Positions 60,921 through 64,000 of a stretch of 64,000 nucleotides of DNA are shown one piece after another. Each line of letters starts with the position of its first letter. The first letter of the stretch is position 1. Made by a program: the position numbers and the translations under genes. The stretch is from Anderseniella sp. Alg231-50 (lineage in GTDB: Bacteria; Pseudomonadota; Alphaproteobacteria; Rhizobiales; Aestuariivirgaceae), in NCBI RefSeq assembly GCF_900149695.1, contig NZ_LT703003.1, positions 124,001 through 188,000 of the forward strand, written 5' to 3'. The notes below the pieces were generated by a model, which saw only the letters and a list, made by a program, of their open reading frames with translations, did no database searches and was not told where the DNA came from.

Positions 60921-61520
60921 ATGGCTCTCGAACTTCCTGATCTCCCCTATGCCTATGATGCGCTTGGTCCTTACATGTCCAAGGAAACCCTGGAGTTTCA
61001 CCACGACAAGCATCACCAGGCCTATGTTACCAACGGCGGCAACCTGCTGAAGGATTCCCCGCATGCGGGCAAGTCGCTGGAAGACATCTGCAAGGCAGCT
61101 TTTTCGGAAGGCAATGCAGGTCTCGTCAACAATGTCGGCCAGCACTACAACCACCTGCATTTCTGGAACTGGATGAAACCGAACGGCGGCGGCAAGAGCC
61201 TGCCCGGCGCACTTCAGGCAGCAGTGGACAGCGACCTTGGCGGTTATGACCAGATGCGCGCAGACTTCATCAATGCCGGCGTGACCCAGTTCGGCTCCGG
61301 CTGGGCGTGGCTTGCGGTTAAAGACGGCAAACTTGCCGTCATGAAGACCGCCAACGGCGAAAACCCGCTGATGCACGGTGCAACACCGATCCTCGGCTGC
61401 GATGTGTGGGAACATTCCTATTACATCGACTACCGCAATGCGCGCCCGAAATACCTGGAAGCCTGGTTCGACAACCTGGTGAACTGGGAATATGTCGAGC
61501 AGCTGCACTCTACCGCCTGA
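60921..61520 (+). CDS. sodB: Fe/Mn superoxide dismutase
   Basis: The 199-residue protein has metal ligands in FHHDKHHQAY, GQHYNHLHFWNWM and DVWEHSYYIDY. The C-terminal WEYVEQLH fits the family. It removes superoxide. Metal choice (Fe, Mn or either) cannot be settled by eye. It starts 38 bp after gcdH and is followed by two hairpins. Confidence 0.97.
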   Translation: MALELPDLPYAYDALGPYMSKETLEFHHDKHHQAYVTNGGNLLKDSPHAGKSLEDICKAAFSEGNAGLVNNVGQHYNHLHFWNWMKPNGGGKSLPGALQAAVDSDLGGYDQMRADFINAGVTQFGSGWAWLAVKDGKLAVMKTANGENPLMHGATPILGCDVWEHSYYIDYRNARPKYLEAWFDNLVNWEYVEQLHSTA

Positions 61521-61706: not shown

Positions 61707-62636
61707 ATGACCCAAAAAACCGCACCCACGATTGATCTCATGTCCGGCCTGCTGCTGCTGGCACTGGCCGCCGTCTGGGGCGGGTCATTCTTCTTTGCCG
61801 AAGTTGCACTGGCGGAAGTGCCGCCGCTGACCATAACGCTGCATCGGGTATTCTGGGCGGTGCCTGTGCTGCTGCTGGTCGTCTTGTGGCGCGGAACGAA
61901 AATCCCCACGTCGCCGCGAACCTGGGGCGCCTATCTGGTCATGGGTGCCTTGAACAATGCCATACCGTTTTCACTGATCTTCTGGGGCCAGAAGACAATC
62001 GAGAGCGGACTGGCCTCGATTCTGAACGGCACAACAGCGGTTTTCGGGGCCGTCGTCTCCGGTCTCATGCTGGTTGACGAACCGCTTACAGCGCGAAAAA
62101 TCATCGGCGCGGTATTTGGGGTTTTTGGTGTTGCCGTGATTATGGGGTTTGACGCTCTCACCAGTCTCGACCTCAGGAACCTGGCCCAGCTCGCCGTTCT
62201 GGGCGCTTCCCTGTCTTATGCGTTCGCAAGTGTGTGGGGCAAAGTCTCGCTGTCCGATAATGCGCCGGAGATGAATGCGCTTGGCATGCTCGTCGGCAGC
62301 ACCGTTTTGATGATCCCGATCGCCATCTGGTCGGACGGGCTGCCTGTCCTTAGTCTTTCGGCCAATGTTTGGGCGTCGCTGCTTTCAGTGGCGGTATTTT
62401 CGACCGCAATTGCGTATCTTTTGTATTTCGCCATTCTGGCGCGGGCCGGCGCCGCCAACCTAATGCTGGTCACCCTGCTGATCCCGCCCTTTGCCATCGG
62501 CCTGGGCGTCGCGTTTCTTGGTGAGCGGCTCGGGCTGGAGGCGTGGCTCGGCTTCGGGCTCATCGCAATTGGCCTGGCGATTACCGACGGGCGCTTGCTG
62601 GCTGGCGCCCGCAGATTGATGGGCGGCAAAACCTGA
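61707..62636 (+). CDS. EamA/DMT-family transporter
   Basis: The 309-residue protein has about ten membrane segments in two EamA halves: LLLLALAAVWGGSFFFAEVA at the start, VFGAVVSGLMLVDEPLTARK ending the first half, and LGVAFLGERLGLEAWLGFGL ending the second. DMT carriers export amino acids or metabolites; the substrate is unknown. It lies 92 bp before the HTH-ribB gene. Confidence 0.92.
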   Translation: MTQKTAPTIDLMSGLLLLALAAVWGGSFFFAEVALAEVPPLTITLHRVFWAVPVLLLVVLWRGTKIPTSPRTWGAYLVMGALNNAIPFSLIFWGQKTIESGLASILNGTTAVFGAVVSGLMLVDEPLTARKIIGAVFGVFGVAVIMGFDALTSLDLRNLAQLAVLGASLSYAFASVWGKVSLSDNAPEMNALGMLVGSTVLMIPIAIWSDGLPVLSLSANVWASLLSVAVFSTAIAYLLYFAILARAGAANLMLVTLLIPPFAIGLGVAFLGERLGLEAWLGFGLIAIGLAITDGRLLAGARRLMGGKT

Positions 62637-62702: not shown

Positions 62703-62719
62703 CTTTAGCCCTGCTAAAG
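62703..62719 (+). promoter_or_regulatory. Perfect inverted repeat upstream of the HTH-ribB fusion
   Basis: CTTTAGC-CCT-GCTAAAG is an exact 7-bp inverted repeat with a 3-bp centre, ending 9 bp before the ATG at 62729. A -10-like CATAAT lies at 62682-62687, so the repeat would sit just after the transcription start, a repressor position. The fused HTH domain is a natural candidate to bind it. I saw no FMN riboswitch here. Confidence 0.5.
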
Positions 62720-62728
62720 CCTTAGCCT

Positions 62729-64000
62729 ATGAAACTCGATGAATGGCTAAAGCAGGCTGATACGACCAAGGCAAAATTTGCCCGCGCGCTGGACATTTCC
62801 GCCGGGCGAATTTCGCAGTTGCTGGCCGGCGACACGCCGTCACTGGACCTGGCCATCAAAATTCAGGTTTTGACCCGCGACAAGGTGAAACCGGTGGATT
62901 TCTCGTCCCACCTTGAAGGAGAACATGACATGACCAGTTCGCTGGATACCGTTGCAAGCGCCATCGCGGCCATCAAGGCCGGCGAGATGGTCGTGGTGGT
63001 CGACGATGACGACCGGGAAAACGAAGGCGACCTGATTGCGGCTGCCTCCAAGGTCACCAACGAACAGATGGCGATGATGGTGCGCCACGGCTCCGGCATT
63101 GTGTGCGCACCGATGACCCGGGAAGACGCACGCCGCCTCAAGCTGGACCCGATGGTATCGGACAATGACGCCCCGCTCGGCACTGCCTTCACGGTGTCCA
63201 TCGACTACAAGGAAGGCCTGACCACGGGCATTTCGGCCAAGGAACGCAGCGCCACGGTGCATGCGCTGGCCAACGCCAATGTACACGCGGAAGATTTCGT
63301 GCGGCCCGGCCACGTATTTCCGCTGATCGCCAAGCGCGGCGGCGTGCTGATGCGTTCCGGCCACACCGAAGCGGCCGTCGACCTGGCCCGGCTCGCCGGC
63401 GAACCGCCGGTCGGCGTGATCTGCGAACTGGTCAATGATGACGGCACGGTCAAGCGCGGCCAGCAGGTCATGGATTTTGCCCGCGAGCACGACTTCAAAA
63501 TCATATCGGTGGCCGATCTCATAGCCTACCGCCAACAGCGTGAACGCCTGGTGGAGCGCGACGGCGAGTTCCAGGTCGACACCCCGTCAGGACCGGCCAA
63601 CGGCATTGCCTACTCAACCTCGTTCGACCCGGTCCAGCATCTGGCTCTGGTCTATGGCGATACGTCATCCGGCACAGATATTCCGGTTCGCCTGCATCGG
63701 CAGGACCTGGTTGAAGACGTCCTGGGCAGCCGCGACACACTGAATGCGGTCTACGAGATTTTCCGCAAGGAAGGCTGCGGCATCCTGATCTATCTGCGCG
63801 AAGGCGTCGCTGGCGTGCCGGCCTCCAAGCTGGGCCAGCCGGACCTGGATGAAGACACCGCATCTTCGCGTGCCCGGGCTGAAAGCTGGCGCGATGTGGG
63901 GCTTGGCGCGCAAATCCTGCGTGACCTGTCGGTAACGTCAATCAGGCTGATTGCCAGTCGGTCGCGGCACTATGTCGGCCTGTCCGGTTTTGACATCGAG
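62729..64000 (+). CDS. ribB: HTH-DHBP synthase-degenerate GTP cyclohydrolase II fusion (RibB, 3' end missing)
   Basis: The open frame of 424 codons reaches the window edge. Residues 1-67 are a Cro/CI-type helix-turn-helix (KFARALDISAGRISQLLAG, then SLDLAIKIQVL). From residue 68 (ATG 62930) comes DHBP synthase with DDDDRENEGDLI, RHGSGIVCAPM, RPGHVFPLIAKRGGVLMRS and GHTEAAVDLARLAG, which makes the riboflavin precursor from ribulose-5-phosphate. From about residue 290 comes a GTP cyclohydrolase II-like domain in which the zinc cysteines are gone (VLGSRDTLNA instead of the G-S-x-R-C-D-C-G pattern), as in RibBX proteins. AAGGAG lies 8 bp before ATG 62930, so a shorter RibBX may also be made; ATG 62729 has no clear ribosome site. 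Confidence 0.9.
   Translation, partial: MKLDEWLKQADTTKAKFARALDISAGRISQLLAGDTPSLDLAIKIQVLTRDKVKPVDFSSHLEGEHDMTSSLDTVASAIAAIKAGEMVVVVDDDDRENEGDLIAAASKVTNEQMAMMVRHGSGIVCAPMTREDARRLKLDPMVSDNDAPLGTAFTVSIDYKEGLTTGISAKERSATVHALANANVHAEDFVRPGHVFPLIAKRGGVLMRSGHTEAAVDLARLAGEPPVGVICELVNDDGTVKRGQQVMDFAREHDFKIISVADLIAYRQQRERLVERDGEFQVDTPSGPANGIAYSTSFDPVQHLALVYGDTSSGTDIPVRLHRQDLVEDVLGSRDTLNAVYEIFRKEGCGILIYLREGVAGVPASKLGQPDLDEDTASSRARAESWRDVGLGAQILRDLSVTSIRLIASRSRHYVGLSGFDIE

Follow-up and report, generated by a model that had tools for sequence, protein, structure and literature searches.

Control of riboflavin synthesis in bacteria has mostly been described in terms of the FMN riboswitch (RF00050), which controls flavin synthesis and uptake genes. 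Fusions of enzyme and regulator are already a known kind, and BirA, NadR and PutA are metabolic enzymes that also bind DNA at their own pathway genes. Two described proteins come closer to the locus considered here. RbkR, which Rodionova et al. are said to have reported in 2017, is an archaeal HTH-riboflavin kinase thought to control flavin genes, and RibBX, reportedly described by Brutinel et al. in 2013, is RibB joined to an inactive GTP cyclohydrolase II (GCHII)-like domain. BzdR combines an N-terminal DNA-binding domain, a linker and a shikimate-kinase-like part that is now inactive and serves as a benzoyl-CoA sensor (PMC3602430). Two reviews name riboswitches and RibR for flavin control in Bacillus subtilis. 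We found no published description of an HTH-RibB fusion in the open-licence literature.

We analyzed a window of 64,000 nucleotides from Anderseniella sp. Alg231-50 (G000:C1:124001-188000), in which an open reading frame beginning at ATG 62729 continues without a stop through the RibB start at 62930 up to the window end. The complete protein has 433 amino acids and ends just past the window. We named it HTH-RibB-X for its Cro/CI-type HTH, its RibB domain and its GCHII-like domain (‘X’) – a Pfam search placed HTH_3 at residues 5–45, DHBP_synthase at 77–267 and GTP_cyclohydro2 at 280–424. Like RbkR, it unites a DNA-binding domain and a flavin-pathway enzyme in one protein, whereas RbkR is archaeal, contains a kinase rather than RibB and has a different DNA-binding domain. 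It shares with BzdR a DNA-binding domain linked to an enzyme-like domain, but the enzyme part of BzdR is inactive and the RibB considered here looks active and is the sole copy found. As in RibBX, RibB is followed by a cysteine-free GCHII-like domain, to which HTH-RibB-X adds the HTH and an operator. BirA, NadR and PutA are other enzymes with other DNA-binding domains, and the FMN riboswitch is RNA-based and absent at this ribBX. We interpret HTH-RibB-X as an autoregulatory enzyme-repressor that gives rise to two products, and assign this reading a probability of about 0.7; that it binds DNA, in which direction it acts and which ligand it senses are inferences.

An earlier note on this DNA had claimed that an HTH is fused in frame to RibB, and the open frame confirms this. 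Among 69 family genomes, 38 match from residue 1–3 without an internal stop; five encode RibB-X without the HTH, two give partial matches, in seven the sole match is a distant RibBA of about 40% identity, and the remaining 17 show none. Across the order, at least 72 of 397 genomes have a match starting at residue 1 or 2, and the fusion occurs in at least eight of 52 families (f1, f20, f27, f34, f35, f41, f42 and f50), with HTH-less RibB-X being the common form in other families among the matches listed. In a scan of named genomes, 34 of 36 loci were the fusion. Carriers include Anderseniella MAGs (the closest, at 96–98%), Aestuariivirga (including A. litoralis KCTC 52945), Thermopetrobacter, Taklimakanibacter and others; two actinobacterial loci of the scan lack RibB. 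Recurrence of the stop-free joined frame in the 38 family genomes and the 34 named loci rules out a frameshift or assembly artefact, and the proposed check for conservation in relatives thus came out in favor of the joined form: many genomes of the order carry the fusion, its HTH is conserved and no frameshift was seen. We also looked by eye, without a family search, for split HTH and RibB genes in six order matches (L166–L171) that began 5' of RibB with a nearby stop, or had been selected for that, and saw no HTH 5' of RibB. A plasmid-borne named fusion was sought as well; the 25 matches listed, out of 314 records, align only from residue 65 on. The sequences are related, so counts here and below are not independent.

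In a class-wide sample of 153 genomes, three matches began at residue 1 or 2: that of our own genome, a second from within the order and a third from outside it. The last (G479:C11:55633-56919) is a full-length fusion with 65% identity to that of L162, and was perhaps acquired by horizontal transfer. Five genomes of genus g10 (L040–L044), about 1.8–2.2 Mb in size, have kept RibB-X and have neither the HTH nor the upstream dyad described below.

The HTH domain of the long form (residues 1–58; 62729–62902, forward strand) is supported by profile match, structure prediction, start codon conservation and Shine-Dalgarno (SD) energy. HTH_3 (PF01381) matched the 67-residue part alone with 28.2 bits and within the whole protein with 24.1 bits, against a cut-off of 23. 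Structure prediction, which the note had called for, gave five helices (residues 3–9, 14–20, 25–32, 39–48 and 55–62) with a mean pLDDT of 87.8 over residues 1–66. The full-length model was mediocre (mean pLDDT 66.9); it agrees on the first four helices and leaves the linker at residues 60–70 with low confidence. The best structural matches in the PDB were HTH regulators (TM about 0.74), none with an E-value below 0.001. The HTH type proposed in the note therefore holds but its limits, which had been set at residues 14–33, do not: the domain extends over about residues 3–62, with residues 25–32 as the predicted recognition helix (62801–62824, forward strand). This helix is present in the model and coincides with residues G26, R27, S29 and Q30, which are invariant among 28 aligned sequences.

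The RibB domain (residues 73–268; 62945–63532, forward strand) scored 281.8 bits against PF00926 (cut-off 26.4) and 247 bits against TIGR00506 (cut-off 177). It contains the catalytic motifs RENEGD and GHTE, neither of which varies among the aligned sequences. This part of the protein thus looks active, though catalysis is inferred from motifs and profile match only. The note's two-part view of the protein was right about both parts but incomplete, as a third domain, X, begins at 63566 and runs on the forward strand beyond the window end at 64000. X passes the Pfam cut-off for PF00925, yet reaches only 29 bits against an NCBIfam RibA equivalog cut-off of 205.85. C-x10-C-x-C, the zinc-cysteine motif of GTP cyclohydrolase II, is missing in 72/72 fusion proteins and 17/17 HTH-less relatives and is found in 6/6 distant RibBA proteins. 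X is conserved despite lacking these cysteines, and the protein fits the definition of RibBX, in which a GCHII-like domain without the cysteines comes after RibB.

HTH-RibB-X is both the sole RibB match and the sole PF00925 match found in its genome (99.4% complete). The latter match being X, which lacks the cysteines, the genome yielded no canonical GTP cyclohydrolase II, and genomes of this kind may open GTP with an unknown enzyme. The genome encodes three creatininase-family proteins. That such proteins explain life without a canonical GCHII is an inference; the formamidase BrbF belongs to the creatininase family (PMC9478397).

Two translation starts are predicted for the gene. An internal ATG (62930–62932, forward strand), the predicted start of a short RibB-X form, is preceded at 8 nt by AAGGAG (62916–62921, forward strand). 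An in-frame start codon is kept in the linker of 69 of 71 anchored genes (36/38 in the family, 33/33 in others; L179 could not be anchored, L028 contains Ns and L008 has no internal start). The best-scoring internal codon is ATG in 34, GTG in one and TTG in one of the family genes, and ATG in 15 and GTG in 18 of the others. For the internal start, the mean anti-SD energy is −6.1 kcal/mol in the family and −7.2 kcal/mol in the others; for the HTH start it is −1.0 and −1.7, respectively. Selecting the best-scoring codon biases the internal values; a fair comparison is with start-like codons inside RibB and X, which average −2.6 in the family and −2.7 in the others. Energies of −5 or better occur at 27/36 (family) and 31/33 (others) internal starts, and at 2/38 and 2/33 HTH starts. 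Differing amino acids encode the internal SD among genes, and synonymous resampling of the linker often yields an equally strong SD in several genes. L008 has its SD at the HTH start, and L017–L020 and L024 have weak internal ones. The internal start usually has a good SD and the HTH start usually none, which makes two products likely. We know of no internal second start that separates enzyme from regulator in BirA, NadR or PutA.

That the sole good SD usually belongs to the internal start could also mean that only the short form is made, the HTH-coding part being a relic that escapes translation. This is very hard to maintain, since purifying selection acts on the HTH (median dN/dS of 0.098, against 0.047 for RibB, in 49 pairs from four groups), its start codon, as counted from DNA, is kept in 72/72 genes (ATG in 37/38 and GTG in 1/38 of our own family), and a −10-like hexamer lies just upstream of it in other families. 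Using a scoring devised for this analysis, we found that the best such hexamer ends 6 nt 5' of the HTH start in 17 and 5–8 nt in 24 of 34 other-family genes. This spacing suggests leaderless mRNAs, and ATG 62729, which has no Shine-Dalgarno, is probably leaderless or nearly so. Within our own genus, the HTH evolves faster than RibB.

Just 5' of the HTH start lies a perfect dyad, CTTTAGC-CCT-GCTAAAG (62703–62719, not assigned to a strand), which we predict to be an operator. Its strict core, TTAGC-N3-GCTAA, occurs at most 110 nt upstream in 23/38 family genes, and a looser dyad scoring at least 10/12 is centred at −19 to −14 in 34/38 (all except L009, L010, L011 and L035), compared with 15/409 control stretches further upstream. 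The 4.6-Mb genome contains a single copy of this strict core; the same pattern read in reverse, as a control, occurs twice per strand. A genome-wide search limited to this strict core, and leaving degenerate sites aside, revealed neither a second target nor a large regulon. The looser pattern TTAGYNNNGCTAA is found in 48/69 family genomes, some of them fusion-free, and directly 5' of the fusion gene in 31/38 fusion genomes; by itself it is not diagnostic.

We compared 34 fusion genes from seven other families, where the palindrome takes the form TTTCAGT-N3-ACTGAAA. A dyad of at least 10/12 precedes 32 of them – the exceptions being L179 and L173, which has a perfect copy at −61. In 30/34 genes such a site has its centre between −31 and −34, and in 22/34 a perfect second copy has its centre between −50 and −70. 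Among control stretches 37/374 reach 10/12, with the perfect scores among them being these 22 second copies. TTTCAGYNNNRCTGAAA is present in 18/26 fusion genomes (21 sites, at the fusion gene in 17 genomes) and in 0/12 fusion-free genomes; its backward control matched in 1/38 genomes. Within 300 nt upstream of 17 HTH-less ribBX genes, no dyad reached 11/12 and one reached 10/12. Sequence-specific DNA binding by the HTH is an inference that rests solely on the conservation of these dyads and on their presence together with the HTH.

In the absence of binding data, and with the genome's other HTH proteins outside our survey, the dyad might instead be the site of a different, unlinked regulator, leaving the fused HTH another role. 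We consider this improbable, as the dyad is absent where the HTH is absent and operator position 4 follows HTH residue 30. Among 66 sites of at least 10/12, Gln30 pairs with T at position 4 on both sides in 35/38; in the exceptions, C replaces T on one side (L194, L195) or on both (L187). All 27 sites with Ala30 have C on one or both sides, and a single Gly30 gene has C on both sides. Residue 30 thus tracks operator position 4, with L187 breaking the rule and few independent events underlying the pairing.

An autoregulatory enzyme-repressor should have a conserved operator at its own gene, and HTH-RibB-X has one, as a prediction only. We are confident, lacking binding or expression data, that HTH-RibB-X controls its own gene through the dyad; the direction of this control is inferred. 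The second copies near −60 would suit an activator of ribBX. Activation is nonetheless unlikely, since the near copy, at −31 to −34 (30/34 other-family genes) or about −15 to −18 (own family), overlaps the likely core promoter, whose position is itself inferred. From this overlap we propose that binding turns ribBX off.

Under the enzyme-repressor reading, the long form would be made from 62729 on a leaderless or near-leaderless mRNA and would dimerize, probably via RibB. The dimer, its geometry being inferred, would set two HTHs on the dyad at 62703–62719 and repress its own promoter when flavin suffices. The internal start at 62930 would yield HTH-less RibB-X from the same mRNA, so that enzyme supply would be separate from repressor supply. 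Two further suggestions of the earlier note gained computational support in this way: for two products with the better SD at the internal start, an internal codon and SD kept in most relatives; for an enzyme reporting to its own promoter, the operator evidence, with DNA binding, signal and direction inferred.

Possible targets beyond ribBX came from four strict TTTCAGYNNNRCTGAAA sites away from a fusion gene. Three of these lie just 5' of an FMN riboswitch preceding an EamA transporter gene. The fourth (L207), inside a coding stretch that appears phage-like from its translation, was taken as chance. At the three loci (L206, L208 and L209, family f41), dyad, riboswitch and transporter gene follow in succession, with an adjoining HAD-hydrolase gene, so that one gene is possibly subject to flavin control at two levels. 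We then read 12 riboswitch loci from the 38 genomes searched for TTTCAGYNNNRCTGAAA, four from our own genus and 30 of the 40 matches listed from 61 f41 genomes. Among the matches listed, from several families, a dyad of at least 11/12 lies upstream of 27/29 EamA riboswitch genes vs 0/13 ribH2 genes (Fisher p 4e-9; double counts removed, no correction for kinship). Since f41 supplied every one of the 29 EamA cases, this contrast is partly one between families; within f41 alone, among the matches listed, the counts are 27/29 and 0/2. These classes rest on reading and a sequence signature, with Pfam EamA run on three genes, and that the f41 EamA genes are RibN-like importers is inferred. At least seven f41 genomes with a riboswitch-linked dyad also encode the fusion (G181, G329, G357, G383, G395, G406 and G438). 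The palindrome at its own promoter and at a probable importer gene of some relatives suggests that the enzyme probably controls its own supply – a prediction from sequence – and the f41 importer promoter would likewise be repressed.

A protein that binds no ligand could also keep RibB constant by sensing its own concentration and repressing itself. No ligand site in X has been shown, and the operator core is unique in its own genome, as such simple autorepression would allow; the f41 dyads before RibN-like FMN-riboswitch genes suggest a flavin signal instead, and X is conserved though it lacks the zinc cysteines. We regard ligand-free autorepression as doubtful. For the enzyme-repressor, the likeliest signal would be flavin status, sensed by X or by the RibB site, but without ligand data we put flavin signaling through either at roughly even odds. 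It is plausible, at slightly less than an even chance, that HTH-RibB-X represents an undescribed class of bacterial flavin regulator, in which one gene would supply both a RibB enzyme (short form) and a flavin-sensing repressor (long form) with X as sensor. Such a regulator would act on ribB, and in some families on flavin import too, either together with the FMN riboswitch or instead of it. Protein-based, self-encoded riboflavin control would then be a prediction for no fewer than eight families of a single order, its operators being at hand for testing, and a possible role would be suggested for the cysteine-free GCHII-like domain of RibBX. The locus would also offer a natural example in which a biosynthetic enzyme present as a single copy has acquired a DNA-binding domain and, through a second start, remains available in its plain form.

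Under stricter filters, RF00050 was found in 19/69 family genomes. In genus g2 it occurs in 0/16 fusion genomes vs 15/21 others (Fisher p 6e-6, kinship not corrected). In genus g1, fusion and riboswitch occur together in 4/6 genomes, with the riboswitch 5' of ribH2. The single match in our own genome (L062:5024-5482, G000:C2) precedes a ribH2-like gene, not ribBX, and this riboswitch-linked gene has no dyad (best score 8/12). The six distant RibBA proteins with zinc cysteines come from riboswitch genomes. We infer from this distribution that, where RibB is not under the riboswitch, the fusion takes its place.

Directly 5' of ribBX in our own genome lies an EamA transporter gene (61707–62636). 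We rejected it as a conserved partner, as it adjoins ribBX only in genus g1 (4/6 genomes, two at a contig edge). A superoxide-dismutase-like gene (60921–61520, labeled from reading its sequence) is found near ribBX in many loci of the family.
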